Virus record (IMG/VR): IMGVR_UViG_3300030451_003001
Coordinates: 1 to 42,984 of that record
Origin: a virus
DNA length: 42,984 nt
Strand: one strand, 5' to 3'
Shown one piece after another: positions 1-17,106 of the stretch. The translations under genes were made by a program, and so were the position numbers. Positions within the stretch are counted from its first letter, which is position 1; each line of letters opens with the position of its first letter. Under the pieces are notes generated by a model. It made no database searches. It worked only from the letters and a program-made list of their open reading frames with translations, and was not told the origin of the DNA.

Positions 1-131
1 ACGCCCTTTGTTCCACTATAGTGATGACAACAATAAGGTGCAGTCTCGTACTCGTAATCGTTTAAATTACCACGCTTATAGTCTATGTATTTACAAGCGT
101 CTACTATCAGTCTAATCAATTTCTTTTTCAT
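1..131 (-). CDS. Hypothetical small protein, cut by window start
   Basis: An open reading frame starts at ATG 131-129 and runs off the left edge without a stop (43 complete codons). The visible part begins MKKKLIRLIVDACKYIDYKR and then becomes rich in Tyr, Asp and Glu, with a CCHH stretch near the visible end. Its start lies inside the end of the neighbouring minus-strand gene (20-base overlap, different frame), as expected for translational coupling in a compact phage operon. The family is not recognised. The Cys/His cluster could bind metal, but that is a guess. Confidence 0.55.
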   Translation of the reverse strand, partial: MKKKLIRLIVDACKYIDYKRGNLNDYEYETAPYCCHHYSGTKG

Positions 132-267
132 CTGTCTGTGTTATTAGGTTATACAATTCCATTGGTTTTATCTGAGTCCACTTACCCTGTCCATTGAGCC
201 TGTAGAAATTTCCACAGGCATCAATCCTTACCAACTTGCCCTCGATTACTATTGCTTTTGCTTCCAT
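112..267 (-). CDS. Hypothetical 51-residue protein
   Basis: A 51-codon frame from ATG 267-265 to the stop at 112-114. The product starts MEAKAIVIEGKLVRIDACGN and continues with a predicted short beta-strand pattern (FYRLNGQGKW) and an acidic C-terminus. It sits between two other minus-strand small genes, and its end overlaps the start of the gene at the window edge by 20 bases. No family is recognised. The alternation of hydrophobic and polar residues suggests a small beta-sheet protein. It is accepted as a gene because of its position in the run of minus-strand genes and its coupling to the next. Confidence 0.55.
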   Translation of the reverse strand: MEAKAIVIEGKLVRIDACGNFYRLNGQGKWTQIKPMELYNLITQTDEKEID

Positions 268-271
268 AGTT

Positions 272-424
272 TTAATCTTTATTTAGGTGAAAATTAATTA
301 ACATAACACTGCTGAATATTAATGTTATCCAAACAATATTACCACTCAATGCGAATGCGTAAATCGTACTTATCGTACTTGCTAATAGCAATACAAAGAT
401 TGCCCAATAATTAAACTTTTTCAT
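272..424 (-). CDS. Small two-span membrane protein
   Basis: A 50-residue product beginning MKKFNYWAIFVLLLASTIST. Two hydrophobic segments are visible (about residues 8-25 and 30-45) separated by a short SGN turn, with Lys at both ends, so it is probably an inner-membrane hairpin. The start at ATG 424-422 is supported by the leader TAAAACCAAATTATT directly before it, which matches the leaders of three other minus-strand genes here. Only four bases separate its stop from the next gene downstream (start 267). Function is unknown; small early phage membrane proteins often act in superinfection exclusion or host takeover, but nothing here shows that. Confidence 0.6.
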   Translation of the reverse strand: MKKFNYWAIFVLLLASTISTIYAFALSGNIVWITLIFSSVMLINFHLNKD

Positions 425-492
425 AATAATTTGGTTTTAAGTTTCCGTTTCGACCTTTTGGTCTCATCAGCACAAGCACTCACTTGTGGACG

Positions 493-557
493 GAGGGCAT
501 CCGTCCGTTTGAACGGACACCCGGAGAGAGGGCATCCGTCCGTTTGAACGGACACCC
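493..557. repeat. Tandem 30-bp repeat, each copy holding the 16-bp palindrome
   Basis: Two identical 30-base units (493-522 and 528-557), each beginning GAGGGCAT and ending in the palindrome GTCCGTT-TG-AACGGAC (503-518, 538-553), are separated by five bases. Just upstream, GGACGGA (488-494) can pair with TCCGTCC (500-506), so the first palindrome could form two mutually exclusive hairpins. The element lies between the amidoligase-like gene and the small membrane-protein gene, both on the minus strand, and may control transcription or mRNA processing between them. Confidence 0.75.
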
Positions 558-562
558 ACAAA

Positions 563-1525
563 TCATCTCTCAGTGGCTCTGCGTAGGCTCGTAGTGTAGT
601 GAGCAGAAAGCCTATTGTATTGGTCAACCCATTGCACAACCTCAGCGTTAATCTTACCGGTCATTAGCATCTTTCTGAACGCCTTTGATAGAGTAACAAT
701 CTCATCAACCTTAGCTTCATTGCCATCGTACATATACAAGAGTATAGATTTAATCTTCTTGATGAATCCTGCGTACGTGCCGTTTGGCTTGTTGATAGCG
801 TAATTCATCAACTCATACATAAGCCTATAGCGAAGATTAATGCTTCTAACTGATTCCACTCGGTTAGGTAGGCGGAACTCAATTCTATCGTCCATAATCT
901 TACAAACGTGATACTTACTGCTTGACGTATGTCCAACCCAATCACCATGATAATCACTTGTATTCATCATCAAGTTTCCATAGCAATATGAATTGCGTAA
1001 TCTGAATCGCCATAGAGCGTAGATAATACCCGCATATGGTCTTAGCTTATCAGCCAAGTCTTGTCCGCTCATACCAACGCAAGAAAGAGTAATGTGACCA
1101 CCACATCTTTGATTTGATGGTGAGTATCTATCTTCGATAATCTTACTTGCTTCAGAGAACATACCAAGCACTTTGTTACGCCAAACTGATTTGTCCACCA
1201 ATGGTAGCAAGTTAGTCACTGCTTCAACTCCACATGATGAATCGTACTCGAAATGACTGAATAATGGATATTCTTTGACTGCTCCACGATGAAAGGTATT
1301 CTTCTCAATCTCAAAGCCTATCGCAAACTTTGACTGAAACTCGCCCTCATCATTGGTAAAGGTAGTCAAGTCACGTGTAGCCCTCGGTAAATGAGTCAAG
1401 TCACGCTCAAACTCAGTCTTGTTTAGCTTTCTGAATGGTAGACCGATTCTACTCGCTTCATGGTATCTTAGCATTCGACCTCTGTTCGAATTGCCCTCAG
1501 CTACATAATTAATTCCTTGTATCAT
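563..1525 (-). CDS. Amidoligase-like enzyme (putative COOH-NH2 ligase, Amidoligase_2 type)
   Basis: A 320-residue protein. Motifs in the order expected of the glutamine-synthetase-like amidoligase family are visible: GFEIE (70-74), DSSCGVEAVT (95-104), CGGHITLS (141-148, in place of the usual G-x-HVH) and RIEFRLPNRV (214-223). In that fold the acidic and His residues of these motifs bind metal and ATP. Such enzymes join a carboxylate to an amine, often on peptides; the substrate here is unknown (host cell wall peptide, host protein or a small metabolite are all possible). The start ATG 1525-1523 is preceded by the shared leader AAAAACCAAATAGTT, and a palindrome copy lies 19 bases upstream. 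The assignment is from motif pattern only; no similarity search was possible. Confidence 0.6.
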   Translation of the reverse strand: MIQGINYVAEGNSNRGRMLRYHEASRIGLPFRKLNKTEFERDLTHLPRATRDLTTFTNDEGEFQSKFAIGFEIEKNTFHRGAVKEYPLFSHFEYDSSCGVEAVTNLLPLVDKSVWRNKVLGMFSEASKIIEDRYSPSNQRCGGHITLSCVGMSGQDLADKLRPYAGIIYALWRFRLRNSYCYGNLMMNTSDYHGDWVGHTSSSKYHVCKIMDDRIEFRLPNRVESVRSINLRYRLMYELMNYAINKPNGTYAGFIKKIKSILLYMYDGNEAKVDEIVTLSKAFRKMLMTGKINAEVVQWVDQYNRLSAHYTTSLRRATER

Positions 1526-1543
1526 AACTATTTGGTTTTTGTA

Positions 1544-1559
1544 GTCCGTTTAAACGGAC
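1544..1559. repeat. Palindrome copy GTCCGTT-TA-AACGGAC
   Basis: A perfect 16-bp dyad lying 19 bases upstream of the amidoligase-like start and just after the end of the upstream minus-strand gene. It is one of seven copies with an invariant 7-bp arm in this window. Confidence 0.8.
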
Positions 1560-1571
1560 ATGGTTAATTTA

Positions 1572-1820
1572 TTAAGCTAATTGTATTATAATTTCATCTG
1601 AATCATCTGCAGGATATATTGCACCATCATCTTCACGCTCAAATACCATAGTCTCATCGCCAAAAAATACTTCTACAGCATCTTGTTCTTCTTTGCATCC
1701 ATTGATAACCTTGCATCCCTCAAGAGAATTGTCAAGGATGAATTGCTCGTATCCATACTCAGAACATACATCGAATGAGCATAATTTGATTCCGTTTGCA
1801 TTTTGAATTGTAATTGTCAT
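1572..1820 (-). CDS. Hypothetical acidic protein, 82 residues
   Basis: The product starts MTITIQNANGIKLCSFDVCS and is strongly acidic in its second half (EREDD, DDSDE). The N-terminal part reads like beta strands (MTITI, IKLCSFDV), so a small beta-rich fold with an acidic face is likely. Four Cys occur in the first half. The start is supported by the leader AAAAAACAAATAGTT before ATG, nearly identical to that of the next gene in the operon. No family is recognised. Small acidic phage proteins may mimic DNA or bind host proteins, but the sequence gives no direct proof. Confidence 0.65.
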   Translation of the reverse strand: MTITIQNANGIKLCSFDVCSEYGYEQFILDNSLEGCKVINGCKEEQDAVEVFFGDETMVFEREDDGAIYPADDSDEIIIQLA

Positions 1821-1855
1821 AACTATTTGTTTTTTATTGGTTAAGACTCAAGTCC

Positions 1856-1871
1856 GTCCGTTAGAACGGAC
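1856..1871. repeat. Palindrome copy GTCCGTT-AG-AACGGAC
   Basis: The 7-bp arms are intact with a different central dinucleotide (AG). The copy sits in the 85-base gap between two minus-strand genes and is flanked by ACTCAAG on both sides (1847-1853 and 1870-1876), so the imperfect repeat extends beyond the core. Confidence 0.8.
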
Positions 1872-1905
1872 TCAAGTTTCGTCTATTCAAGACTCGTCAG
1901 TTAAC

Positions 1906-2520
1906 CTATGAATTTAGTTCTACTCTCATCTCATTGAACGAACGACTAACCATTGGAGGAATCTTATCCTCATCGCCACTGATATGAATTTGCCCGTCAG
2001 CAGTCAAACGCATAGAAACACCTTTGCCATCGTCAAAGCACTCGCCTTTGATAGCGAACGTCATCAGAGTAGTAGATGTAGTTTCAACCTCAGCATCATC
2101 GCCATCAGTCTCAACAGCCTTAGCGTACTTTAGTAGATTCTTGATGCTTCTCGAAGCAGTCTTGTCGTTTTGGTTTTCTAGCTTCGTACATTCTCTCTTG
2201 TACTTAGTGATAGTGTCATTAGACTCATCACGTAGCTTACCAACCTTAACCATGTCGTAAAAGAATGATTTGTTGTAACCGAATATTTGCTTGTGAAATT
2301 CTTCGGTAGTCATCACTACACCAATGTAATCCATCTGTTGCTTACATTCGGCTGATTTGAAATACTCGAAAGTTTTGTAAATCTTGTGAGCCAATTTGAT
2401 TTGCTTGTCAAACGTCTTTTTCTCTGAGTCTTGTAACTCAGTTACTAACGTCAATGCACCATTGAACTCATTACAATTGTTTCCTAACAATTCCTCGAAA
2501 ATTGGATTAATTTGTCTCAT
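1906..2520 (-). CDS. Hypothetical protein, 204 residues, first gene of the minus-strand operon
   Basis: The N-terminal two thirds are predicted largely helical and charged, including a segment TTEEFHKQIFGYNKSFFYDM (about residues 71-90) that reads like a DNA-binding or replication/partition-type helical region. The C-terminal third (from about 150) is beta-like and acidic (MTFAIKGECFDDGKGVSMRL). It is the first gene after the divergent control region and the nearest to the only clear minus-strand promoter (2583-2612), so it is probably expressed early. The leader AAAAATCAAGTAATT precedes its ATG. No family can be named; a regulatory or DNA-binding role is an inference from position and helix pattern. 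Confidence 0.65.
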   Translation of the reverse strand: MRQINPIFEELLGNNCNEFNGALTLVTELQDSEKKTFDKQIKLAHKIYKTFEYFKSAECKQQMDYIGVVMTTEEFHKQIFGYNKSFFYDMVKVGKLRDESNDTITKYKRECTKLENQNDKTASRSIKNLLKYAKAVETDGDDAEVETTSTTLMTFAIKGECFDDGKGVSMRLTADGQIHISGDEDKIPPMVSRSFNEMRVELNS

Positions 2521-2582
2521 AATTACTTGATTTTTAGTTATTTAAGTTAAATTATCGGAGTACGTTTCTCGGACTCACTTTA

Positions 2583-2612
2583 CAAATATAGTTTAATTCT
2601 CGTACAATACAA
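2583..2612 (-). promoter_or_regulatory. Bacteroidota-type promoter for the minus-strand operon
   Basis: On the minus strand a TATATTTG box (2583-2590, matching TAnnTTTG) lies 19 bases from an upstream TTG (2610-2612), the arrangement of the flavobacterial housekeeping promoter. It lies 63 bases before the 204-residue gene and is the only such box seen on this strand before the six minus-strand genes. Confidence 0.6.
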
Positions 2613-2656
2613 TACCTAAACGTATTTTTTTTCATTTTTTTTACATCTCTTGTCTA

Positions 2657-2677
2657 ATCTCAGTATATACTTGAGAT
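2657..2677. repeat. Inverted repeat, operator-like
   Basis: ATCTCA (2657-2662) and TGAGAT (2672-2677) flank GTATATACT, giving a near-perfect 21-base dyad with one extra T. It is placed between the minus-strand promoter and the plus-strand genes, where a regulator could act on either direction. It could also simply form a hairpin. Confidence 0.45.
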
Positions 2678-3041
2678 GTGGACGGAACAAATCCCCAAGA
2701 AAAGTTTAACGTGCTTTTGCCCGGGAATGGGCTGTGCATCCTTTCTTTGCATCTGTTAAGATATTCTGCTCTAATTTTCAGTCTTAAGTCCGTTTCAACG
2801 GACAAAGCAGTTAATCATGGTGAATCCGAGCATTACAAACGTGAATCCGATACACTCCGACAAACGTACTGCAAGGCTTGTAGATGTACGGCAGTAAAAC
2901 GGCAAAAAATCCGATTGCACCGAGCAAAAACACACCCCCACCCCCAAGAAAAAAATCGGTTTTCTGAGGGCGACCGACACGCTGCACGCGACACATAACC
3001 TTTTAGTTCTATATATCTAATTTTTTTTATACCTTTACCCT
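2678..3041. other. Divergent control region without a convincing gene; repeat-rich
   Basis: This stretch looks G+C-richer than the surrounding sequence. It holds a palindrome copy (2788-2803), two copies of GTGAATCCGA (2820-2829, 2841-2850), a third AATCCGA (2908-2914), two ACAAACGT copies and a C-rich tract near 2935-2945. Reading frames of about 60-106 codons exist on both strands but none is convincing. The position between divergent gene blocks and the short direct repeats would fit a replication origin or a regulatory region; this is inference. Confidence 0.4.
2788..2803. repeat. Palindrome copy GTCCGTT-TC-AACGGAC
   Basis: The arms are intact with central dinucleotide TC. It is the only copy inside the divergent control region. 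A minus-strand 61-codon frame of doubtful reality has its stop codon inside this element. Confidence 0.8.
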
Positions 3042-3509: not shown

Positions 3510-5099
3510 ATGAATCCAAAAGAATTACACTTTGCTGATGAGGGTAGAAAAAAACTTTTCAGCGGACTAGAAAAAATTACTAACGCAGTAAAGAGCACTC
3601 TCGGTCCTAGAGGTAACACAGTGCTAATTGAATCAGAAAATCATACTCATGGAATCACCGTTACTAAAGATGGTGTTACAGTTGCTAAGTCTATTAGCTT
3701 GCTTGACTCTGTGGAAAATCTTGCAGTACGTATTGTAAAGGAAGCTTCGGAAAAGACAGCGACTAATGCCGGTGATGGTACTACTACTGCAATCGTATTA
3801 TCGCAAGCTTTATCTCTTGCGGGTAATGAAATGATAAAGTCCGGTATGAATAAGACATTAGTTCTTAGAGAGCTAGTTGAAGCGACAAAGGTTGTAGTGG
3901 AAAATCTTAAGAAGATGAGTAAGCCTGTTGATAATAATAAGCTTGAGGATGTTGCTACCATCTCTGCTAATAATGATTCGTATATAGGTAATATAATATC
4001 TAAAGTATATAATTCAGTTGGTACAGATGGAATAGTTACGGTTGAGAACTCTCAGTCTTCTGAAACATATTTTGAGGTTACTAACGGTATTAAAGTTGAC
4101 CGTGGTTACTCTAGTAACTTGTTTATCAATAATCACAAAAAGGACGAGTGTATTTATGAGGATGTAAATATTCTTGTTAGTGATGCTGAGATAACAAATG
4201 TATTACAGATTGAGAATGTTTTAAAACCAATTATTAATAAGGGTGAAAAGTTATTGATTATAGCTAATGCATCTTCTAATGTGTTAAACACTCTTGCTGC
4301 TAATGTTATGAAGAACGGTTTGAAGATATGTGTTATATCACCACCGAGTTTTGGTTACAAGCAACATGAGTTGATGAATGATATTGCATTATCTGTTGGT
4401 GCTACATATTTTTCTGAAAAGACAGGTGACGACCTTAGTTTGATACTACCTAAAGATTTAGGTAAAGCTAAAAAAATTATAGTAGGTAAAGATTCATCTA
4501 TAATTATTAAAGATGAAAATGTAGTATCTAAAGATGATATTGATAAGCGAGTATCTGAGCTTCGTGATGCACATGACATAACTGATAAGAAAGCTGACCG
4601 TGAGTTTATACTATCACGTATAGCTTCATTAACAGGAGGTGTAGGTGTTATATATGCAGGAGGTAAAACTGACCTAGAGCAAAAAGAACTATATGACCGT
4701 ATTGATGATGCTGTATGTGCTGTTCGTTCTGCTACTGTTGAGGGTATACTTCCGGGAGGAGGAGTAGCTCTTGAAAACATATCACGTAAATTAGCTGTAA
4801 AAGATAATTGGTCTGATGAAAAGAAGTGTGCGTATGAGATACTTAAAGTGTCTTTACTATCACCTATTATCACAATACTTGAAAACGCAGGATTAAATTA
4901 CAACTCAATATACTCTGATAATTTTTCAAAGGGTTGGGGTTATGATGTAAAAAATGATAAATATGGTAATATGATGAAGATGGGTATCATTGACCCAATG
5001 AAAGTTACTAAGAACGCTCTTCAAAATGCTGTGTCAGTTGCTGTCACACTACTTAGCACTAATGCTATTATTACCATGATGAGAAGTAATGGAAAATAA
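3510..5099 (+). CDS. groEL: GroEL-type chaperonin (Cpn60), phage-encoded
   Basis: A 529-residue group I chaperonin, slightly shorter than the usual 545 or so. Hallmarks seen: LGPRG (31-35), TKDGVTVAK (52-60), the nucleotide-binding GDGTTT (88-93), and the late equatorial DDAVCAVRSATVEGILPGGG, which contains the Asp corresponding to catalytic Asp398 of E. coli GroEL. The hydrophobic Gly-Met tail typical of bacterial GroEL is absent; the protein ends TMMRSNGK. It presumably folds phage proteins (capsid or others) in an ATP-driven ring with the GroES encoded 650 bases downstream. Its end overlaps the phoH-like start by 11 bases. Sequence between the conserved blocks is divergent, typical of viral chaperonins rather than a recent host copy. 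Confidence 0.95.
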   Translation: MNPKELHFADEGRKKLFSGLEKITNAVKSTLGPRGNTVLIESENHTHGITVTKDGVTVAKSISLLDSVENLAVRIVKEASEKTATNAGDGTTTAIVLSQALSLAGNEMIKSGMNKTLVLRELVEATKVVVENLKKMSKPVDNNKLEDVATISANNDSYIGNIISKVYNSVGTDGIVTVENSQSSETYFEVTNGIKVDRGYSSNLFINNHKKDECIYEDVNILVSDAEITNVLQIENVLKPIINKGEKLLIIANASSNVLNTLAANVMKNGLKICVISPPSFGYKQHELMNDIALSVGATYFSEKTGDDLSLILPKDLGKAKKIIVGKDSSIIIKDENVVSKDDIDKRVSELRDAHDITDKKADREFILSRIASLTGGVGVIYAGGKTDLEQKELYDRIDDAVCAVRSATVEGILPGGGVALENISRKLAVKDNWSDEKKCAYEILKVSLLSPIITILENAGLNYNSIYSDNFSKGWGYDVKNDKYGNMMKMGIIDPMKVTKNALQNAVSVAVTLLSTNAIITMMRSNGK

Positions 5100-5745
5100 A
5101 TCTAAGAAGCCACCAAAGGGTAGCGTTAAGTTTAACATATCCTTGTCTGAAGAACAAAAAAGAGCTAAGGAGCAAATGATAAAGCATCCGTATAGCTTTG
5201 TTGTAGGTAAGGCAGGGTCAGGTAAGACATTACTTGCTGTTCAAGTGGCTTTAGATATGTTTTTTAAAAGGCAGTATAATAAGATAATTATTACAAGACC
5301 AACTGTTGCGACTGAAGACAATGGGTTTCTCCCCGGTACTGAAAAAGAAAAGCTAGAACCTTGGCTTGTACCTATCATGTCTAATATGCGTAAGGTCTAT
5401 AACAAGCCTGATAAGATAGCTAAGATGGTGGAGCAAGAGGAAATTGAGCTAGTCTCTCTTGCCCACTTTCGAGGCAGAACATTTGATGGTGCTGTAGTTA
5501 TAGTAGATGAGTTTCAGAACTTAACTAAGGCACAGCTAAGAATGGCTTTAGGTAGGTTGGGTAAAGACTCTATAATGATATTCTGTGGAGACAATCAGCA
5601 GATTGATTTATCTACAGAGCTTAACTCAGCAATTGACGATGTTCATAAAATAAAAGGTAGCGACTATGTGTTTAAAGTTATACTAGAAGACAATCATAGA
5701 AATAAAGCTATAGACGATGTATTAAAACTTTTAACAGGATACTAA
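5089..5745 (+). CDS. phoH: PhoH-like P-loop ATPase
   Basis: A 218-residue protein with Walker A GKAGSGKT (40-47), the PhoH signature FRGRTFDGAVVIVDEFQN (127-144, containing Walker B with DE), and the sensor-like CGDNQQID (166-173). The family corresponds to the ATPase half of superfamily 1 helicases and is widespread in marine phages, where its role (RNA or nucleotide metabolism, possibly stress response) is unsettled. It is sandwiched between groEL (11-base overlap) and groES (adjacent start, no gap), an unusual position suggesting co-expression with the folding machinery. The start ATG 5089 gives the full family N-terminus. Confidence 0.95.
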   Translation: MENKSKKPPKGSVKFNISLSEEQKRAKEQMIKHPYSFVVGKAGSGKTLLAVQVALDMFFKRQYNKIIITRPTVATEDNGFLPGTEKEKLEPWLVPIMSNMRKVYNKPDKIAKMVEQEEIELVSLAHFRGRTFDGAVVIVDEFQNLTKAQLRMALGRLGKDSIMIFCGDNQQIDLSTELNSAIDDVHKIKGSDYVFKVILEDNHRNKAIDDVLKLLTGY

Positions 5746-6003
5746 ATGAAACCAATAGGAAAATATATTGTAATCAATGAAATTAAAGAAGAGGTAAAAA
5801 CACAATCAGGTATTTTACTTTCAGGAGATGACGTTGATAAGATAAGATATAAAAAGGGTACTGTTGTAAAACCCGGTACTGAGGTAACAAAGATAAATGA
5901 GGGTGACACAATCTATTACGACACACGAGCAGGTTACTCTATGTTTATAGAAGACGTGCAGTATACGATTATTCGTGAGAACGATGTCGTTGTTGTCTTA
6001 TAG
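5746..6003 (+). CDS. groES: GroES-type co-chaperonin
   Basis: An 85-residue protein, close to the 95 of bacterial GroES. It has the GroES order: beta strand KPIGKYIVI, a mobile-loop candidate TQSGILLSGDD (about 20-30, with the GIL tripeptide that docks on GroEL), GTVVKPG, GDTIYYD and a final acidic-hydrophobic strand IRENDVVVVL. It would cap the phage GroEL or possibly the host one. The gene begins immediately after the phoH stop. Its last 35 bases overlap the end of the convergent winged-helix gene. The tyrosine-containing region YYDTRAGYSMF replaces the usual roof-loop composition, as is common in viral forms. Confidence 0.88.
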   Translation: MKPIGKYIVINEIKEEVKTQSGILLSGDDVDKIRYKKGTVVKPGTEVTKINEGDTIYYDTRAGYSMFIEDVQYTIIRENDVVVVL

Positions 6004-7110: not shown

Positions 7111-10100
7111 ATGTTAAATATTATAGGTAATATAATATTAAGTGCAACATCTGCAGTAGCAACTGTTGTGTCTCAAGTTGTACTTGAAAATCTAAGATTT
7201 TGGCTTCCTTTTGAAAGAACTGAAAAACAAGATAAAGAGCTAGTTACTAATGTCGATTTTTCTAGTGAAGGTAATTGGATTTATCGTGGGTCTCAAGGTT
7301 ATAGTATATCTAACGGAACTCTTAATTATGATGGTTCATCCGGTCAATTTAGAAGAGCATTACAAAACTTAAACACAAAAACAGGTGCTCAGTATGAGTT
7401 AACTATTACAATAGATAGTATAAGCACCGGTAGTTTAAACTTTGGATTTGGAAGTAAAAATGTTGGTAGTTTTTCGGGAACTGTTCAACAAAGTTTTTCT
7501 TCTGTTGGTACTCATAAAAGAATTGTGACCGCTACTTCTGATGAGCACTCTATAGTTATTCAAAATAATGTTGCTGCTCAAACTTGGTCAATTAGTCATG
7601 TATCAGTAAAAGAAATAACTCAGGTTGTGCCTGATGCTTCAAGAGGTTTAACTGAAAATGTTGGCTCTGAATTAAATGATGGAACGTGGAATCCTAATGG
7701 TGGTTGGAGTGTATCAAATGGTGTAGCTACTAATGACGGTACAGGAAGTACTCTTACAAATGACATCCTTACTATAGGTAAGGTTTATAGAATGACTGTA
7801 AAGTTTTCAAGCTACACCCCACTGACTCCTCCTGCGTTAGGTGATTTTAGTATGTTCCTTGGCGTAAACTCAGAATCTTTTAATTTTAATGGGACAGAAG
7901 AATTTACTTTTACTGCTCAATGTACAGGTGATACTAATGCAAGAATAAAATCTAAAAACGGAGGTATTGGTTCTATTAATATTAGTGACATTTCAATAAA
8001 AGAATTAACGTATAGTGATATAGGTCCAATAAAAAATCCTGCAACTCTTTTTACAGGTAAAGCACTTAATTTTGATGGTGTAAACGACCAAGTTTATAAT
8101 ACCTCAAGTTTTCCAATAAATATTTCTTCAGGAAGTTGGACTGTAGCCGTTTGGTTTAATGTTGATGAATTACAAGATGGAAACCAAAACCCAATTAACC
8201 AATGTATATTTAATAATGGAATAGACGTTGATAATAGGTTTGGAATAGGTATAAAAAATAAGATACTTGTAGTAAATAAATATGACACTACAAATAGTTA
8301 TGTTAATGTAAGACCTATTAAAAGTGGTGTAGCTACTCTTATAAAACAAACTTGGCAAAGAATTGTAGCTGTTATTGTTGATGGTGATATAACTGTATAT
8401 TTAGATGGTCAACCCGGTCAAGAATCAACAGGTACATCTCCATATAGGTATTTTGAGGGCTTTGCAATTGGAGCTACAGGAAGTGTTGCAAACCCAAGGT
8501 ATTTTGGTGGTAAGATTGCAGATGTACAAGTTTATAATGCAGCTTGGACTGCTGAAGATGCCTTATATGATTATCAAAATCCTAATCATCTTGTTTTAGA
8601 TAATCCTAACACTAATATATTACCAAATAATTTACGAGGATATTTTCCATTAAATGAAGGTAGCGGGAGTCTTGCTATTAACAGTGGTTATAATGAAGAA
8701 TTATCAATAGTAGATGAAAATCTTACAAACACTTTTGAAAATCATCAAAATAGATTTAATTTAACTATTGTTCCAAACTTAATTGTTGTAGGTCCTGATA
8801 CTCAAAATAATCAATTTAGAATAGCTAAGAAAAAATCTACTGCACCATCACTAGATGTAGGAGAAAAATATTTAATTTCATTTAAATATACTGTTAATGG
8901 AGGTGGCTCAATAGAATTTAAAACTGATAATGCTGAAATTTCACTTACCCCTACATCAGATGCTACAAATAAAACAATTAATGAAGTTATTATAGAATCA
9001 GGTTCAGGAAATTATAATTTTACTTTTGGTCCAACAACTTCAGCTATAGTAGGAGATATTGAAATTAAAAATGTTGTTGATAGAGATACCGAAATTGATG
9101 GTGCAGTATATAATAATTCTCAGTCTATGATACCTCAATTAGGTATGATGGACTATACTTATAATGCTGAAAATTTAATTCTTCATAATGAAGATATAAG
9201 TAATGTAGTATTTGGAAAAGCCGGAAACCCAACTGTTTCTGAATATATAAAAGATTTACCTCCGGGAGTTAGTCAAGCATGGAAAGTATCCACACCACAA
9301 CCTAGTAACACGTATATTGCTATAAATGAAGCCGATAATTTAAGTGTTAGTGCAAATGGTAAAGCTAAAGGTATTTGGGCTAAAACAGTTAGTGGCTCAG
9401 GTAAGGTAGCTTTAAATGTTTTTCATGGATATTTTACAGGTAGTACTTTACAATATCTTCCTGTTGTTACAAATGAGTGGCAATTTTTTCAAGTTCAATT
9501 TACAAATTCTAATCCTCATTACTATGCAGTAGATTTTAGACACCCTGATAATGAATTAAGTGAAGTAATTATTGCGGGTGCTCACATGACTAGTACTGAT
9601 GCAGGCACAAATATATTAAAACCTTATATAAGAGCTACTAGTTCTCATCCTTCAGGTGCAAGTATTATACAAGACCCAAAATATAAAGGTAAGGATAGTT
9701 TTGATAATTCTATAAGACTTAGAGAGCATTCATTTAATTTAGATGGAACAGGTTATGCTCTTGTAGCTGAGTCTACTAGTTTAAATATAGGAAGTGGTCC
9801 TTTCACATTAGAAGCTTGGGTTAAAGCTGATTTTATAAATACAGGTAGTAGTGTTAATGTTATATGGGTTCTTGATGGTAGTGAAAGTGTTACTGCAGGA
9901 GGTAATGTTGGATTAGTAACATTTAGCTCAAATAAACTAGGTGCTTATGTTTCAGGTGTAACAATAGATTCACTTACAACATTTGTTAAAGGACAATGGT
10001 ATCATGTTGCTATTGGAAGAACTCCAAGTGGTGTTTCAAGTTTATACATTAATGGAGATTTAGCAGCTATACCAACTTCACCTTCTGCTGTAAGTTTAAA

Positions 10101-10290
10101 TACAGCTCAACCTAAAATAGGTATTGATAACACTTCAACAAGACATTATAAACAGCTAATAGATGATGTTCGTCTTTATAATAGACTTTTAACTACAGAT
10201 GAAATAGAACAAAATTATCTAGCAGGTTTAGATACACATACAATTGGTTCATCATTTAGTGATGACTTCTCATCGGATTATGGAAATTAA
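7111..10290 (+). CDS. Large tail fibre / adhesin with two LamG-type lectin domains
   Basis: A 1059-residue protein. The N-terminus (1-25) is hydrophobic and may anchor it to the particle. Two jelly-roll, carbohydrate-binding-like domains follow (about 44-167, 184-300), then a LamG/concanavalin-like domain (about 318-490, with FDGVNDQVYN, WTVAVWF, ITVYLDGQ and IADVQVYNAAWT), two more beta-sandwich regions (about 530-655, 684-830) and a second LamG domain (about 874-1036, with FTLEAWVKAD, WYHVAIGRT and IDDVRLYNRLLT). Such proteins bind polysaccharide. This is the best candidate for recognition of the host surface glycan. The gene is preceded by a virion protein gene and followed by two small tail-type genes. 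Confidence 0.8.
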   Translation: MLNIIGNIILSATSAVATVVSQVVLENLRFWLPFERTEKQDKELVTNVDFSSEGNWIYRGSQGYSISNGTLNYDGSSGQFRRALQNLNTKTGAQYELTITIDSISTGSLNFGFGSKNVGSFSGTVQQSFSSVGTHKRIVTATSDEHSIVIQNNVAAQTWSISHVSVKEITQVVPDASRGLTENVGSELNDGTWNPNGGWSVSNGVATNDGTGSTLTNDILTIGKVYRMTVKFSSYTPLTPPALGDFSMFLGVNSESFNFNGTEEFTFTAQCTGDTNARIKSKNGGIGSINISDISIKELTYSDIGPIKNPATLFTGKALNFDGVNDQVYNTSSFPINISSGSWTVAVWFNVDELQDGNQNPINQCIFNNGIDVDNRFGIGIKNKILVVNKYDTTNSYVNVRPIKSGVATLIKQTWQRIVAVIVDGDITVYLDGQPGQESTGTSPYRYFEGFAIGATGSVANPRYFGGKIADVQVYNAAWTAEDALYDYQNPNHLVLDNPNTNILPNNLRGYFPLNEGSGSLAINSGYNEELSIVDENLTNTFENHQNRFNLTIVPNLIVVGPDTQNNQFRIAKKKSTAPSLDVGEKYLISFKYTVNGGGSIEFKTDNAEISLTPTSDATNKTINEVIIESGSGNYNFTFGPTTSAIVGDIEIKNVVDRDTEIDGAVYNNSQSMIPQLGMMDYTYNAENLILHNEDISNVVFGKAGNPTVSEYIKDLPPGVSQAWKVSTPQPSNTYIAINEADNLSVSANGKAKGIWAKTVSGSGKVALNVFHGYFTGSTLQYLPVVTNEWQFFQVQFTNSNPHYYAVDFRHPDNELSEVIIAGAHMTSTDAGTNILKPYIRATSSHPSGASIIQDPKYKGKDSFDNSIRLREHSFNLDGTGYALVAESTSLNIGSGPFTLEAWVKADFINTGSSVNVIWVLDGSESVTAGGNVGLVTFSSNKLGAYVSGVTIDSLTTFVKGQWYHVAIGRTPSGVSSLYINGDLAAIPTSPSAVSLNTAQPKIGIDNTSTRHYKQLIDDVRLYNRLLTTDEIEQNYLAGLDTHTIGSSFSDDFSSDYGN

Positions 10291-11392: not shown

Positions 11393-13561
11393 ATGAAAAA
11401 AGTATTATTATTTATATGCCTGCTGATAGCAGGTATTTCTTATTCTCAAGATACTATTATAGATTGTTTTGGAACACCTTCACCGCAAGATTGGATAGGT
11501 GATGGATTTTGTGATAATGGCTCTTATACTTGGAATGGAGTTCCTATAGATTTTAATTGTGAAGAATTTGGTTATGACGCAGGAGACTGTGAAATTCCAA
11601 TAGACGAATCTGCAGTGCTTGGTTGTACAGATATAGAATCACCAAATTTTAATCCTTGGGCTACCTTAGATGATGGTAGCTGTGTTGTTTCTGAATGTTC
11701 TTCAGGGTTTTCATTAATTAAAATAGAGCTTACTTTAGACCAATTTCCTAGTGAAACAGGACTTATTGTAACTGATATATCTAATGGTGAATATATAGAA
11801 AATATTCCTGCAGGAACATTTAATTATAATCAATCAAACCAAACTATTGTATATGATATTTGCGTACCTGAAACGGGTGTTGAAATCATTCTTAGCGACA
11901 CATATGGTGATGGGCTTGCAGGCTCTTTGTATAATGGTGGTTCTGATGGAGACCTTATCATATATGGTGACTACCCTTGTGGTAATGGTCCTGATGTATT
12001 TTTTGACTTAGACACAGCTAATTTTGGAAATGCTGCTTATTCAGGACCTTTATGGATTCCTCCTTGTGGTGTTGAGGCTATACCGGGTTGTTTAGATACA
12101 GATTATATTGAGTTTAACCCTAGTGCTAATATAGATGATGGTAGCTGTGAAACATTACACACTTTAGGGTGTATAAATCCTAATGCTTTTAATTTCAATC
12201 CTGAAGCTACATTAAACGAAATAATACCTCAATGTGAATATACTTTAGTATTAGAAGATGATGGTGGTGATGGTTGGGGTAGTTCCTATATAGGTATATC
12301 TCAAGGTAATGATATAATAGGTGAATTTAGTGTTGAGCCCGGATTGTATCAAAAAGAATTTACTCTTCAATTACATACAGACCAACCAATAAAAGTATTT
12401 TACTTTCAAATAGCAGGACCTCAACAACCTATTCAAGAAGCTAGTTTTCAAACTATGCACAATTCATTTAGGCTTATAAATTCAAACAATAATGTAACAC
12501 TACAGGGTGGTGTATTTCCATTCTCTTTTAATGGACAAGGAGCACTTCAACCATATGGTCCACCTTTTTGGACTATATATGAAGCAATGCCTTTTTGTGG
12601 TGATTATTGTATACCTACGGTTTATGGTTGTTTAGATGAACAATCTCTTAATTACGATTCTTTAGCAAATACAGATGATGCTAGTTGTATTGAAATAGTA
12701 GAAGGTTGCACTTCACCCTTCGCATTTAATTATGACTCACTTGCTAATGTAGATAACGGTAGTTGTGTAGCAGTAGTTGTTGGCTGTATGGATGAAATAG
12801 CATGGAACTATAACTTTGCTGCTAATACAGAAGATGGGTCTTGTTTGTATTTTGGCTGTATGGACACCTTAGCTGATAACTATGACCCTATAGCAAATGT
12901 AGATAACGGTTCTTGTTTTATTACAGTGTTAGGCTGCACAGACCCTGAAGCTTTTAATTATAATGAAGAAGCTAATACAGAAGACTTTAGTTGTATACCA
13001 TTTATATATGGTTGTATGGATAGTACAGCATTTAATTACGACTCATTAGCTAATTCAGAAGATGAATGTGAATTAATTGTAGAAGGCTGTATGGATGTAA
13101 ATGCGTATAACTATGATATTTTTGCAAACACAGAATCTGAATGCTTGTATGATGCAGGTTGTGTAGGAGAGCCGGGTGACCCTTATTGGTTAAATGACAC
13201 TTGTTATGCTTGGGTTATTATGGTAGACCCTTATTGTTGTAATACAAATTGGGATGAAAAATGTCAGCAGTTATATTGGAGTTGTTCAGACGACAGTCCT
13301 TTAGATACAAGAGATTTACTTAGAGGGCATAACATAGTTATGTATCCTAACCCTATGGGTGATGTTTTAAATATACTAACAAATGGTCCTGTAGGTATAG
13401 AGGTATATGATGTAACGGGTAAACTTATAATAAAAGTTAAAGAAAATCAAACTGCAGAAGGACTAAATCAATTAGATGTAAGTTTACTACCTGCAGGTGT
13501 ATATAATTTTAGTGTAACATATGATGGTAATACAAGTACTACAAAAGTATTAAAGAGATGA
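11393..13561 (+). CDS. Secreted Cys-rich surface protein with T9SS C-terminal sorting domain
   Basis: A 722-residue protein. A Sec signal peptide (MKKVLLFICLLIAGISYSQ, cut after Gln19) is followed by a Notch/LNR-like module (about 33-66: WIGDGFCD ... YDAGDC), ten repeats of the form GC-x-D-x-x-A-x-NYD-x-x-AN-x-DDGSC (about 77-97, 232-252, 259-281, then a run from 412 to 584), two beta domains between them (about 105-225, 283-400), a DPYCCNTNWDEKC motif (612-624) and a C-terminal domain (648-722: MYPNPMGDVLNI, VEVYDVTGK-like core, LLPAGVYNFSV, TKVLKR). That ending is the type A sorting signal used by the type IX secretion system to cross the outer membrane. All these modules are typical of flavobacterial surface proteins, so capture from a host is likely. 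The next gene overlaps by 4 bases. Confidence 0.88.
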   Translation: MKKVLLFICLLIAGISYSQDTIIDCFGTPSPQDWIGDGFCDNGSYTWNGVPIDFNCEEFGYDAGDCEIPIDESAVLGCTDIESPNFNPWATLDDGSCVVSECSSGFSLIKIELTLDQFPSETGLIVTDISNGEYIENIPAGTFNYNQSNQTIVYDICVPETGVEIILSDTYGDGLAGSLYNGGSDGDLIIYGDYPCGNGPDVFFDLDTANFGNAAYSGPLWIPPCGVEAIPGCLDTDYIEFNPSANIDDGSCETLHTLGCINPNAFNFNPEATLNEIIPQCEYTLVLEDDGGDGWGSSYIGISQGNDIIGEFSVEPGLYQKEFTLQLHTDQPIKVFYFQIAGPQQPIQEASFQTMHNSFRLINSNNNVTLQGGVFPFSFNGQGALQPYGPPFWTIYEAMPFCGDYCIPTVYGCLDEQSLNYDSLANTDDASCIEIVEGCTSPFAFNYDSLANVDNGSCVAVVVGCMDEIAWNYNFAANTEDGSCLYFGCMDTLADNYDPIANVDNGSCFITVLGCTDPEAFNYNEEANTEDFSCIPFIYGCMDSTAFNYDSLANSEDECELIVEGCMDVNAYNYDIFANTESECLYDAGCVGEPGDPYWLNDTCYAWVIMVDPYCCNTNWDEKCQQLYWSCSDDSPLDTRDLLRGHNIVMYPNPMGDVLNILTNGPVGIEVYDVTGKLIIKVKENQTAEGLNQLDVSLLPAGVYNFSVTYDGNTSTTKVLKR

Positions 13562-14592
13562 GAAGAATACTATTAATATTATTATTTATCCCTTTTTTAA
13601 CAAGTGCTCAGGGATTACACAAAATATTTAAATACTCTACTATTTATGCCGCAGTTAATGGTGGAACGTCATTAGGTGATAATCAAATATGGTCTGTAAC
13701 TACAGGTTCTTTGCAAGAGCAAACAATAGAAACGCCTTTTGATTATACTTTTTCTGTAGGTATAAGAAAAATAAAAAGATTTGGTTATGAAAATAGAGCT
13801 CTTACTTTTTATAATGGTACAGAAAATTCTTATTCTGATGCCGCAACCATTGGTAGAGTGGATGGTTTTGAATATTTATTTGAAGCTGATTTTGTAAGAA
13901 GATTAGGTATAAACTATACTAATCAACATCATTTTGTTAGATACGTTGCTGACAAGTGGGTTAGTAAAATAGAATATTTAGAAGATGGGTTTGCTGATAT
14001 AAAATACTTTGAAGCGTCTGAAAGATTTAGATTAAAAGTAAGGGATGGCAAGCTTTCGTTTAACGGGGGTTTAGTGCAAAGACTTGCCGAACCTTACGGA
14101 TTTGACCCTCTTGAAGATTGGGTACTTGATAATGGAACTTTACATTATACATACCTTGCACTTCAAGAAGGATACAACATAACCCTAGGGGGAGAATATT
14201 TTTCACCTGACGGAGAGCTTGTAGCTAACAGTCAAGAAGTATGGGAAGAGGTTGTTATACCTCAAGTTATAAATAATTATGTAGAAAAACAAAGAAACTC
14301 TTTATCAAATATTGTTGAGTATTCTTTTGTTTTAGGTTTAGATTATTACCATTTTACAAAAGACTTTTGGTTTCACACTTGGGGAAACATTATGCCATAC
14401 CACGTAGATACTGATAATTTATACTCATATCATAAATATAATAATGGTCAATGGATTGACTATTCTTTAGGTTTAATTTATGGTTATAGATTTAATAAAA
14501 GTTTAGGTATATTTGTAGAAGGAAGATATAATAAGTATTGGAATAGAAAATGGCACAACTTTAGTGTTGGACTTAATTATGTAATATTTTAA
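13558..14592 (+). CDS. Outer-membrane beta-barrel-like protein
   Basis: A 344-residue protein with signal peptide MRRILLILLFIPFLTSAQ, then alternating aromatic/hydrophobic strands, and a final strand NFSVGLNYVIF ending in Phe, the usual signal for the BAM outer-membrane assembly machinery. Strands such as YSFVLGLDYYHF and YSLGLIYGYRF support a barrel. No plug or catalytic motif is seen. It overlaps the T9SS cargo gene by 4 bases (ATGA), so the two are probably made together. It resembles proteins I associate with other flavobacterial phages, so it may be a general feature of the group: receptor blocking, outer-membrane lysis, or a virion component are all open. Confidence 0.72.
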   Translation: MRRILLILLFIPFLTSAQGLHKIFKYSTIYAAVNGGTSLGDNQIWSVTTGSLQEQTIETPFDYTFSVGIRKIKRFGYENRALTFYNGTENSYSDAATIGRVDGFEYLFEADFVRRLGINYTNQHHFVRYVADKWVSKIEYLEDGFADIKYFEASERFRLKVRDGKLSFNGGLVQRLAEPYGFDPLEDWVLDNGTLHYTYLALQEGYNITLGGEYFSPDGELVANSQEVWEEVVIPQVINNYVEKQRNSLSNIVEYSFVLGLDYYHFTKDFWFHTWGNIMPYHVDTDNLYSYHKYNNGQWIDYSLGLIYGYRFNKSLGIFVEGRYNKYWNRKWHNFSVGLNYVIF

Positions 14593-14594
14593 AA

Positions 14595-14879
14595 ATGGCA
14601 AAAGAATTAAGCGAAGAAACGTCTTTTAATATAAGTTTAAAAACATTAGCAGGTATTGCTGCACTTATATTTACATTAGTAGGTATGTGGTTTACACTTC
14701 AAAACGATATAGCAGATGCTAAAGAGTTGCCATTACCTCCTGACCCTGAGATTACTCGTATGGAGTATGACATGAAAGACCAACTTATACGTCAAACTAT
14801 TATGACTACTCAAGAAGATGTAAAGGAAATTAAAGACCATATGTTAAGAATGGAGAGTAAGATTGATAACTTAAAATAG
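14595..14879 (+). CDS. Single-span membrane protein with coiled coil (holin- or i-spanin-like)
   Basis: A 94-residue protein with one transmembrane segment (about 17-36, LAGIAALIFTLVGMWF), a Pro-rich hinge (LPLPPDPE) and a C-terminal coiled-coil candidate (about 55-94). A single N-terminal span followed by a coiled coil is the shape of inner-membrane spanins, and also of some small holins. It lies between an outer-membrane protein gene and a secreted protein gene, in the same run as the endolysin and the 3TM holin, so a lysis role is likely. The choice between holin and spanin cannot be made from sequence. Confidence 0.6.
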   Translation: MAKELSEETSFNISLKTLAGIAALIFTLVGMWFTLQNDIADAKELPLPPDPEITRMEYDMKDQLIRQTIMTTQEDVKEIKDHMLRMESKIDNLK

Positions 14880-14883
14880 TAAT

Positions 14884-15219
14884 ATGAGAATATTATTAAT
14901 ACTTTTTTTAACACCTTTTTTAAGCTACTCACAAGACTTTCCTGACGGAATGGTTGCTGTTGAGTTTAATGCAAGTTTTAATAAAGCTAATGAAGTAACT
15001 TGGTTGCCTAAGCTTACAGACTGCGAAACTCAAAGAGTTGATATAGCTGCAGATTCAAGGTGGTCTAAAGAATATAAAATAGTAGTTGTGCCTACTATTG
15101 TTATATTTAACAACAATGAAGAAGTAAAAAGATTTCAAGCAAATATAATGATGACTATGGAAGCTACTAAGAGTGAAGTTCAAAACTCTATAGATGAAAT
15201 AGTTATGGAAGCATTTTAA
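14884..15219 (+). CDS. Secreted thioredoxin-fold protein lacking the CXXC active site
   Basis: A 111-residue protein with signal peptide MRILLILFLTPFLSYSQ. The mature part follows the thioredoxin order: strand MVAVEFNASF, then a helix, strand RVDIAADS, and the cis-Pro segment VVVPTIVIFNNNEEVKRFQA (Pro70-Thr71). The position of the WCxxC motif reads NASFNKANEV, without Cys; the only Cys in the mature chain is at 47. It should therefore be a periplasmic binding or scaffold protein rather than a redox enzyme. It lies in the envelope/lysis block. A degenerated oxidoreductase is an alternative. Confidence 0.65.
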   Translation: MRILLILFLTPFLSYSQDFPDGMVAVEFNASFNKANEVTWLPKLTDCETQRVDIAADSRWSKEYKIVVVPTIVIFNNNEEVKRFQANIMMTMEATKSEVQNSIDEIVMEAF

Positions 15220-15229
15220 ATAAATAAAA

Positions 15230-15679
15230 ATGAAGTTAAGTAAAAACTTTACTCGTGCTGAAATAGAGCACAGTAATACAGCAAAAAGATTAGATATTAG
15301 CAATGAAATGTCTGATGAACACTTGGAAAATATGCAAAGGGTTATTGATAATCTCATACAACCTATGCGGGACGCTATTGGTCCTATTCGTATTAGTAGT
15401 GGTTATCGCAGCCCAAAACTTAATAAGGCTATTGGGGGAAGTAGTCGCTCGCAACATTGCAAAGGTGAGGCTTTGGACCTTCAATTTTGGAAGGAAGGAA
15501 AAATGAATAACAAAGTTATTTATGATTGGGTTATAGATTCAGGTATAGAGTTTGACCAAATGATAAATGAATTTGATTTTGCTTGGATACATATATCATT
15601 AAAGTCAAAGGAAAATAGAAAAGAAATTCTTGAAGCGTATAAAAACGAAAAAGGAAAAACAAAATATAAATATGTTTAA
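15230..15679 (+). CDS. M15-type peptidoglycan peptidase (endolysin)
   Basis: A 149-residue protein of the peptidase M15 (M15_3) type. Zinc ligands are evident: His76 and Asp83 in SRSQHCKGEALDL and His121 in FAWIHIS. The N-terminal FTRAEIEHSNTAKR and the ISSGYRSPKLNKAIGG segment are typical of the family. It cleaves the stem peptide of peptidoglycan and is the lysis enzyme. There is no signal peptide, so it needs the holin encoded next for release; the holin start lies inside its last codons (8-base overlap). Confidence 0.9.
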   Translation: MKLSKNFTRAEIEHSNTAKRLDISNEMSDEHLENMQRVIDNLIQPMRDAIGPIRISSGYRSPKLNKAIGGSSRSQHCKGEALDLQFWKEGKMNNKVIYDWVIDSGIEFDQMINEFDFAWIHISLKSKENRKEILEAYKNEKGKTKYKYV

Positions 15680-16061
15680 AAATATAATAAGTAAATTAGT
15701 TGGTCAAGCTTCAACTATTATAGATGAGGTTGTAACAACTGATGAAGAAAGATTAGCTCTTAAAAATAAATTAGAGCAACTAGGAAAAGAACACGAGCAA
15801 GAAATTTTTAGATTAGAAGTAGAAGATAGAAAAAGTGCTAGAACAATGTTTAGTGATGATAGTATTATACAAAAACTATTGGCTATAATATTTACTTGTG
15901 CTTATTTTTTTATTTCTTATTTTATGTTTAAGTATTTTGTAATGAATACTTTGGAGTTGTCAGACTATGAAATAGGTTTTATATCTACAGTGTTTGGTGC
16001 TATGTCAAGTAAGGTTAATACTATTATTGACTTTTTCTTTGGAGGTTCGTCTAAAAAATAA
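15672..16061 (+). CDS. Phage holin, 3TM/GTA-holin type
   Basis: A 129-residue protein read from ATG 15672; a longer frame from TTG 15630 is possible but would lie inside the endolysin gene and adds only Lys-rich residues. Features: amphipathic N-terminus MFKNIISKLVGQ, TTDEERLALKNKLE, a charged helix ending in EDRKSARTMF, a long hydrophobic block (about 66-90) and a last one ending KVNTIIDFFFGGSSKK. That ending is characteristic of the 3TM holin family. It makes the inner-membrane lesion that frees the M15 enzyme. No terminator follows; a new promoter begins directly after the stop. Confidence 0.8.
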   Translation: MFKNIISKLVGQASTIIDEVVTTDEERLALKNKLEQLGKEHEQEIFRLEVEDRKSARTMFSDDSIIQKLLAIIFTCAYFFISYFMFKYFVMNTLELSDYEIGFISTVFGAMSSKVNTIIDFFFGGSSKK

Positions 16062-16066
16062 TTTAT

Positions 16067-16074
16067 TATCTTTG
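16067..16074 (+). promoter_or_regulatory. -7 box before the repeat fibre gene
   Basis: TATCTTTG lies 21 bases before the ATG at 16096, overlapping the end of the lysis block by position. A TTTG at 16038-16041 is a rather distant -33 candidate (25-base gap). Confidence 0.55.
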
Positions 16075-16095
16075 CAATAACAAAAAAAGAAACCT

Positions 16096-17106
16096 ATGCC
16101 TAAGATTAGTTCATATACAACAGCCACTCCTGCCCTTACAGATAAACTTATAGGTTCAGATGCTAACGGTACTCCAACTAACGCAACTAAAAATTTTACA
16201 GTAGAAAGCGTTACTGAAATTACTAAAAATACAATATTGCCTGAAACAACAACAGAAACACCGGCACTTACAGATAAAGTATTTGGAAGTAATGATTCAG
16301 GTAATCCACGTACACCAAATAGAAATTTTACACTTGAAGGTGTTAGGGATACAATAATACCTCAAACAACAGCAGGGTCAGCTACATTATCAGATAGATT
16401 ATTTGCTGCTAATCCATCAGAAGCTAATCCAAGAATTGCAGACCGAACTTTTACTATTGATAGCGTTAAAAATGCAATATTACCTGTAACAGGACTTCAA
16501 GCTCCTGCATTGACAGATAAAATATTTGCAACTGATGTAGCTAGTCCACGAGTTCCAAATCAACATTTTACTTTACAAGGTGTTAAAGATTTAATAGCAC
16601 CATGCAATCTTATTCTTGACTCAGCAAGTACTGTTGACCAAGAATTAAGTGCGGCTAATACAAAAACATTGGTTGCATTTGGTTCTGCAGTAGACACTAA
16701 TTTTGTTCAATTAAACGTAACAGGTGATGTTATTATTAAAATAGCAGGAAGTTATTCAGTTAGAGTAGCTATAAATTGCGGGTGTAACGGTATTACATCT
16801 CAAATAGCCCGTCACATAGATTATTATTTTTCAGTAGATAAAGATGGAACTCAAGCTTTTCAAACTTCTCAAAATACTGTATATTTTGATAACGGTGATA
16901 CTGACCCTGCACAAACATTAATAAAAGAATATCCATTTTATGATATTGCTGCAAATACTACTCTTCAGTTTTATTGGTCGGGTAGTTATTATGTCAATAC
17001 TCCTAGTCCGGGTGTATTTAAAACAGCTTTAGTTAACAGACCTACAGGAACTACAGGTATATTAGGTGTTCCTTCAGCACATATACAAATAGTTAAATTA
17101 AATTAG
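16096..17106 (+). CDS. Repeat-containing tail fibre or spike protein
   Basis: A 336-residue protein built from four imperfect repeats of about 40 residues (about 1-49, 50-89, 90-130, 131-169), each with the pattern ALTDK-x-x-G-S/T followed by P-R-x-x-N-x-x-FT-x-x-x-V-K. The C-terminal half (170-336) is a beta-rich globular domain resembling trimeric tail-fibre heads (FVQLNVTGDVIIKIAGSYSV, HIDYYFSVDKDG). The repeats likely form a stalk and the C-terminus binds the host or another fibre. It has its own promoter, separating it from the lysis block. Confidence 0.65.
   Translation: MPKISSYTTATPALTDKLIGSDANGTPTNATKNFTVESVTEITKNTILPETTTETPALTDKVFGSNDSGNPRTPNRNFTLEGVRDTIIPQTTAGSATLSDRLFAANPSEANPRIADRTFTIDSVKNAILPVTGLQAPALTDKIFATDVASPRVPNQHFTLQGVKDLIAPCNLILDSASTVDQELSAANTKTLVAFGSAVDTNFVQLNVTGDVIIKIAGSYSVRVAINCGCNGITSQIARHIDYYFSVDKDGTQAFQTSQNTVYFDNGDTDPAQTLIKEYPFYDIAANTTLQFYWSGSYYVNTPSPGVFKTALVNRPTGTTGILGVPSAHIQIVKLN

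Follow-up and report, generated by a model that had tools for sequence, protein, structure and literature searches.

Phage genes bearing signals of the type IX secretion system (T9SS) have precedents. Cryophage encodes three T9SS cargo genes that are thought to use the host system and for whose products superinfection exclusion was suggested, according to the accessible part of the report (PMC7468147, 2020), and crAss-like phages have BACON genes near or carrying T9SS domains, as far as the available portion of an earlier paper goes (PMC6949934, 2019). The initial annotation of the DNA studied here had supposed that a virus exploiting T9SS was rarely or never described, a claim that does not survive these two reports, and phage T9SS cargo is already known. 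What appears to be new is the setting, which the initial annotation had overlooked: the cargo gene is the first gene of a conserved four-gene cassette, which is not described in the open literature that we searched, most subscription papers lying outside it.

The window, by which we mean the whole stretch of DNA analysed, is a 42,984-base virus record of a podovirus-like phage with terminase (phrog_6681), portal, head protein and M15 endolysin genes. The cassette consists of the cargo, an outer-membrane (OM) beta-barrel, a 94-aa inner-membrane coiled-coil protein and a periplasmic thioredoxin-fold protein without CxxC, and in the window these genes are followed, in that order, by the M15 endolysin and a holin-like gene. 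The features are as follows.

11393..13561, + strand: predicted T9SS type A cargo, cassette gene 1, 722 aa (single ORF)
11393..11449, + strand: Sec-type signal peptide, residues 1-19 (by inspection; crude rule)
11465..11590, + strand: LNR-like Cys stretch, residues 25-66 (sequence; without a Pfam Notch match)
11705..12052, + strand: first beta-rich GDG module, residues ~105-220 (AlphaFold strands; invariant D/G residues)
12236..12592, + strand: second beta-rich module with GGDGWG and FQTMHNSF, residues ~282-400 (alignment/AlphaFold model)
12626..13144, + strand: main block of GC-D repeats, residues 412-584 (pattern count)
13226..13264, + strand: DPYCCNTNWDEKC motif, residues 612-624 (sequence; family conservation)
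13340..13558, + strand: T9SS type A sorting domain, residues 650-722 (TIGR04183, PF18962, AlphaFold model)
13558..13561, + strand: ATGA overlap of cargo stop and barrel start (sequence)
13558..14592, + strand: OM beta-barrel, 344 aa, with signal peptide and ~12 predicted strands (AlphaFold pLDDT 73; OM-barrel matches; alignment)
14595..14879, + strand: 94-aa protein with N-terminal membrane helix and periplasmic coiled coil (alignment; topology by inspection)
14884..15219, + strand: secreted thioredoxin-fold protein, no CxxC (Pfam PF00085, 19.6 bits; alignment)
15230..15679, + strand: M15 peptidase endolysin (phrog_894, E=3.8e-36; PF08291, 55.9 bits)
15630..16061, + strand: holin-like membrane protein (phrog_3427, E=2.3e-6)

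The N-terminus of the cargo, MKKVLLFICLLIAGISYSQ/D, reads by inspection as a Sec-type signal, and a crude, home-made signal-peptide rule is passed by 92 of the 137 cargo family members compared with 59 of 1648 other ORFs in the same loci. At the other end, the protein exceeds the cut-offs of both TIGR04183 (45 bits, cut-off 23) and PF18962 (48.1 bits, cut-off 27), each of which matches 48 of 49 aligned family members at E<=0.01. In the AlphaFold model, which is of middling quality (pLDDT 71.6, pTM 0.33), this end matches the NucA sorting domain of the T9SS complex 8glk_D (TMt 0.76, rmsd 2.5, 28% identity), and the sorting domain also matches 8gl6_D (TMt 0.73). Whole-model matches to GH2 enzymes were taken as spurious (TM ~0.1), and Pfam revealed no catalytic or enzyme domain in the window's cargo. 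Given its signal and sorting domain, the cargo is very probably exported by the host T9SS.

Between the two ends, a strict pattern counts nine GC-x-[DNS] repeats (at most one in 2000 shuffles), with copies outside the main block at residues 77-97 and 259-281 and, by eye, at 232-252; across the family these tandem, Cys-rich repeats number 3 to 29. An LNR-like stretch is visible by eye and kept in near relatives, and no Notch/LNR Pfam model matches the 722-aa protein at E<=1, a range in which HMMER filters remove most very weak matches. The initial annotation was right about the signal peptide, the type A sorting domain and the DPYCC..NWDEKC motif, in which most Cys, Asp and Trp residues are invariant across the family. 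Nine of its ten repeats are found by the strict pattern and the tenth by eye only, its LNR-like module stands as a conserved resemblance that failed the HMM test, and TIGR04131, a model that it had named, is unmatched in the cargo at E<=1.

Retention of the sorting domain was assessed in 48 whole records, chosen from the loci at hand with the longest contigs first, 45 of which carry it over the PF18962 cut-off. The exceptions are MW202828 and MT497068, two INPHARED relatives of the window without cassette and without PF18962, and G024, a cassette-bearing record whose cargo has a degenerate tail. The domain is therefore over cut-off in 45 of the 46 cassette-bearing records, as a single copy in 43 and as two copies in G014 and G015. 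Six cargo genes (L152, L277, L298, L299, L303 and L307), five of which cluster on the barrel tree (0.97), have a degenerate, shortened tail of the DILGR...GTVEKKFIK type without YPNP; these count against universal use of the standard signal and are possibly a variant of it. When the tail end was used as a query against phage records, one match reached E=3e-3, a weak sorting-domain-like stretch in a 635-kb uncultured phage (LR745206.1, 298384-298605), and four others had E values of 3 to 8.

As the initial annotation had stated, the T9SS type A cargo is encoded by a phage, with terminase, portal, head protein and endolysin genes present and integrase absent. Among named records, the terminase is closest to that of Caudoviricetes sp. 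ctfjg026 (76%) and next to those of Flavobacterium phages (45%), and Cellulophaga phages are also within the 91 terminase-matched records. A scan of viral contigs yielded 74 loci encoding cargo relatives (best-segment identity 44-97%), and the gene order around the cargo in three contigs of 60,383, 61,117 and 60,829 bp is identical to the window's, which rules out the chimera that the initial annotation had considered at this point. A prophage gene was rejected because no integrase was found in 37 records, the window among them, and a plasmid gene because bases 1-25000 had no plasmid match in a search run in near mode only. The window's cargo, barrel and coiled coil had no match in 50,697 phage records, and the sole hits of the thioredoxin-fold query were thioredoxins of Streptomyces phages, which covered 35-37% of the query. 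Elsewhere in the window, 3510-5099, 5089-5745 and 5746-6003 hold a phage GroEL (Pfam Cpn60), a PhoH-like ATPase and, by position, a GroES-like protein, and the first 3000 bases (1-3000) have a GC content of 0.39 versus ~0.32 and carry opposite-strand genes, including one for a 320-aa protein without Pfam match.

The four genes form a conserved unit. By BLAST, the 74 cargo loci, truncated ones counted, include 69 with the barrel, 64 with the 94-aa gene, 66 with the thioredoxin-fold gene and 52 with the M15 endolysin. Barrel-seeded scans were run so that the cargo was not the seed. The first (80 loci, 42 of them removed for short flanks) had cargo, coiled coil and thioredoxin-fold gene all within 5.5 kb in 38/38 full-flank loci; the second (76 new loci, four of 80 being already in the set, and 44 removed for short flanks) had the cargo and thioredoxin-fold gene in 32/32 and the coiled coil in 29/32. 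These 70 full-flank loci represent 64 distinct barrels, 36 of which are absent from the cargo-seeded set, and among all 156 barrel-seeded loci, whatever their flanks, the cargo is present in 148 while the other eight end close to the barrel. Seeding with the coiled coil, once 37 loci with short flanks and two in which no coiled-coil ORF was called had been set aside, found the four genes together in 34 of 35 loci, with L268 as the sole exception. The 137 distinct cassettes fall into three gene orders (105, 19 and 13), the genes always being together, and cargo and barrel share the 4-nt ATGA overlap in 93 of 120 adjacent pairs, a pattern that includes the window. Distance correlations between cassette genes were not used as evidence because they had no terminase control. 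Relatives of the barrel abound among uncultured viral contigs: two scans that overlap gave at least 522 stretches and 547 stretches, respectively, up to 80 of which were examined in each.

The partner proteins point to the cell envelope. Structural matches of the barrel are weak and belong to generic OM barrels of many kinds, including the channels NanC, KdgM and CymA; its match to 8gl6_F of the T9SS complex is also weak (TMq 0.30), no NCBIfam or Pfam family of the T9SS barrels PorV or PorP/SprF was found for it at E<=1, and conservation by barrel region did not single out the outer loops. The 94-aa protein fits, by inspection, an N-in inner-membrane protein with a periplasmic coiled coil. The thioredoxin-fold protein scores below the PF00085 cut-off (19.6 versus 23.5 bits), and given that the member L071 reaches 25.5 bits, the fold is likely common to the members, 27 of 27 of which lack the CxxC active site in the alignment.

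Three of the four genes also occur without the first. L268 and L320, the latter a contig in a Flavobacteriales-order genome, have these three genes together with an M15-like gene, and no cargo. Scans with their barrels covered four relatives for L268 and 80 fetched of 150 for L320. Across the 85 loci L320-L404, the coiled coil is present in 77 and the thioredoxin-fold gene in 80, with no sorting-domain or cargo match in any, and PF18962 is matched in none of 46 whole records with other barrel types (43 of the cargo-less clade B, three of the L268 type). The clade-B barrel and coiled coil and the L062 barrel were unmatched among isolate phages. On the barrel tree, cargo-type and L268-type barrels group together (0.998), with weak support for the cargo type alone (0.57). 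Given the absence of the cargo from other barrel types, the cargo belongs to a single barrel type, while the trio makes up a broader unit.

The cassette is common to phages with unlike terminases. The window's terminase family is matched by 35 of the 46 cassette-bearing records, four of them weakly and over part of the model, and not by the other 11; six of the 15 records with no or weak match carry a Terminase_6N-type terminase of 520-535 aa, whose model the window, used as a control, does not match, and the remaining nine, in which neither model finds a terminase, may be fragments. Identity to the window often lies at 75-95% for the barrel, coiled-coil and thioredoxin-fold proteins where that of the terminase is 46-57%. 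Cassette-bearing records span 39 to 246 kb, and the phages are probably virulent and of Bacteroidota. The cargo is under purifying selection, with dN/dS of 0.09-0.13 when the window is compared with its three closest relatives (reaching 0.18 once two more are added), unlike two tail-like proteins in the same comparison: a Laminin_G_3 fibre-like protein (7111-10290; 0.85-0.94) and a 336-aa tail-like protein (16096-17106; 1.0-1.5), both of which are likely fast-evolving host-range proteins.

Two peptide patterns of the cargo, run against the genome collection, hit two loci, each of them in a MAG bin. SprA, the T9SS translocon, is encoded (2384 bits) in a Flavobacteriales MAG that includes a phage contig bearing the cassette; a cassette fragment (L159) lies in a MAG labelled Nitrosopelagicus, an archaeon, without SprA, and is probably a mis-binned phage contig. 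A host gene caught by accident was rejected, given that barrel relatives occurred in 2/395 and coiled-coil relatives in 2/296 sampled genomes of the order and that both barrel contigs are viral or phage-like: one is a 43,296-bp contig also known as a viral contig, and the other (G419:C16) is phage-like by reading, with reductase-like, thymidylate-synthase-like and M15-like genes. The Flavobacteriales MAG's own exoproteins, which by reading include a subtilisin-like and an M43-like protease, contain the same repeats, and some also have GDG modules or sorting-domain tails, suggesting that the phage cargo was assembled from host-type surface modules.

An endolysin gene, of one of two unrelated types, lies within 5.5 kb of 36/67 cargo-type barrels (M15 in 28, amidase in eight), or 37/68 with L268 included, and five queries recognised none near 31/67 cargo-type cassettes; clade-B barrels have an M15 endolysin within 5.5 kb in 29/34 cases. 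Among ten neighbour genes of other lineages searched with Pfam, three code for amidase endolysins, one for a nuclease and one for a DUF protein, and five are unmatched. Using a home-made, relaxed lipobox rule that returns false positives in control loci, we found no lipoprotein o-spanin candidate in the window and, in three 20-kb pieces (60,000 of 60,383 bases) of a near-identical relative, only a 40-aa antisense ORF, and so no ordinary o-spanin; the same scan of seven other loci gave one plausible lipoprotein, in MW202828 and remote from the lysis genes, plus false positives. No OM lipoprotein partner of a two-component spanin was found, the linked OM gene being the barrel, and the PHROG spanin match of the coiled-coil member L069 was non-significant (phrog_739, E 0.43).

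Croceibacter belongs to the flavobacteria. Its phages are listed as spanin-less in the accessible part of a study in which an OM protein was proposed as a possible o-spanin (PMC6139136). Bacteroidetes phages are said to use unimolecular spanins only in the available portion of a 2025 survey (PMC12596118), a statement that is not borne out here by the lipobox result. In MW202828.1 (L002), a 207-aa membrane protein with a beta-rich end is encoded at 15506-16129, directly before the M15 endolysin, the same slot as the cassette's and with no homology to the cassette seen; it is possibly a unimolecular spanin in an equivalent position, the equivalence of the slots being itself presumed.

On these grounds we propose that the large, Cys-rich cargo would cross the inner membrane by Sec, reach the surface via the host T9SS and form there the surface component of an envelope cassette of four proteins. 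Translation of the barrel is probably coupled to that of the cargo, and it is fairly likely that the two act jointly at the outer face, while the coiled coil and the thioredoxin-fold protein may bridge or service the periplasm. The late job of this assembly might be to weaken or open the outer membrane for progeny exit, replacing a lipoprotein spanin, which is the weakest step of the proposal. Given that the trio, with or without cargo, often adjoins an endolysin, a late egress job seems the most likely one, and we give slightly less than an even chance to the cargo being the surface arm of a module, next to endolysin and holin, for OM disruption or egress. The full picture is somewhat unlikely: a new OM disruption or egress machine, with a barrel co-translated with a T9SS-exported protein and a periplasmic link, that replaces lipoprotein spanins, is swapped as a unit between unlike phages and has its outer half loaded by host secretion. 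Among the uses suggested in the initial annotation, OM rupture is strengthened by the linkage of the cargo to the barrel of the outer and the coiled coil of the inner membrane and, frequently, to an endolysin, and receptor masking is still a rival. Several observations weaken egress: no reason is evident why an OM disruptor should need a surface cargo, which clade B does without; no recognised endolysin lies near 31/67 cargo-type cassettes; the cargo modules resemble host exoproteins, fitting surface modification equally; and the barrel resembles generic OM barrels only.

The main rival, which we consider unlikely, is superinfection exclusion, in which cargo and barrel would coat or remodel the surface of the infected cell or occupy the T9SS, so that receptors or adhesins on which other phages depend would be masked or kept from export. 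T9SS and gliding genes do matter to flavobacterial phages, some of which gld/spr mutants resist (PMC9233685, accessible part), and two T9SS adhesins, SprB and RemA, are possible receptors (PMC13288928, likewise in part); the modules shared with host exoproteins and the single cargo per phage in 43/45 would suit this role too, which the Cryophage authors had in mind for their own cargo (PMC7468147, in the part available). However, endolysin genes adjoin the cassette in about half of the loci, cargo-less sister modules exist, and purifying selection on a four-protein unit in phages with unlike terminases would, in our judgement, be unusual for exclusion. The host exoproteins with the same modules, together with the varying number (3 to 29) of tandem Cys-rich repeats and the beta-rich modules, would also be consistent with a surface adhesin or matrix by which infected cells adhere to one another, to particles or to algal material, to the benefit of spread or protection; this is improbable, and it would leave unexplained why the cargo is so closely linked to one type of barrel and to partners in the periplasm. 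That the barrel is a porin for oligosaccharides or nutrients, for which the cargo captures substrate during infection, is very improbable: NanC, KdgM and CymA are among its structural matches, but these are weak and spread over many kinds of OM barrel, and the window's cargo has no catalytic domain. The GC-D repeats match a Synechococcus phage S-CAM3 gene annotated as virion structural protein (NC_031906.1, 36562-36966, L405; 12% of the query, 36% identity), and cyanobacteria are not known to have a T9SS, as would fit an unsecreted virion component with the repeats as structural decoration. Against this reading, to which we attach hardly any probability, stand the signal peptide, the sorting domain kept in 45/46 records and a purifying selection that differs from that on tail-like proteins.

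The cassette offers a testable idea of what uncultured phages do at the outer face of the host cell. If the egress reading is true, it suggests how some phages without lipoprotein spanins open the Bacteroidota outer membrane; if exclusion is true, it would be a T9SS-based surface defence of phages. Either could be tested through the sorting domain and T9SS mutants of Flavobacterium johnsoniae.

Compared with known systems, the cassette resembles the two-component spanins, such as lambda Rz/Rz1, in pairing an inner-membrane protein that has a periplasmic coiled coil with an OM partner, often by an endolysin. No sequence match places it in that group, and in contrast to spanins, whose outer partner is a lipoprotein, the cassette has a beta-barrel in this place and two further proteins, one of them T9SS-tagged. 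The cargo resembles Bacteroidota T9SS type A cargo such as NucA/Endonuclease I (8glk_D) in its sorting domain, by HMM and model, and chromosomal exoproteins of the Flavobacteriales MAG in its repeats and GDG module; unlike these, it has no enzyme domain found, is phage-encoded and is coupled to a phage OM barrel. With Cryophage it shares phage genes that have T9SS type A sorting domains. However, whereas the Cryophage cargo, as described in the accessible part of that report, is encoded by three variable genes of a single phage, for an endoglucanase, a GH39 protein and a PA14 protein (PMC7468147), here one conserved Cys-rich protein, nearly always single per record, occurs with three partner genes on many contigs.
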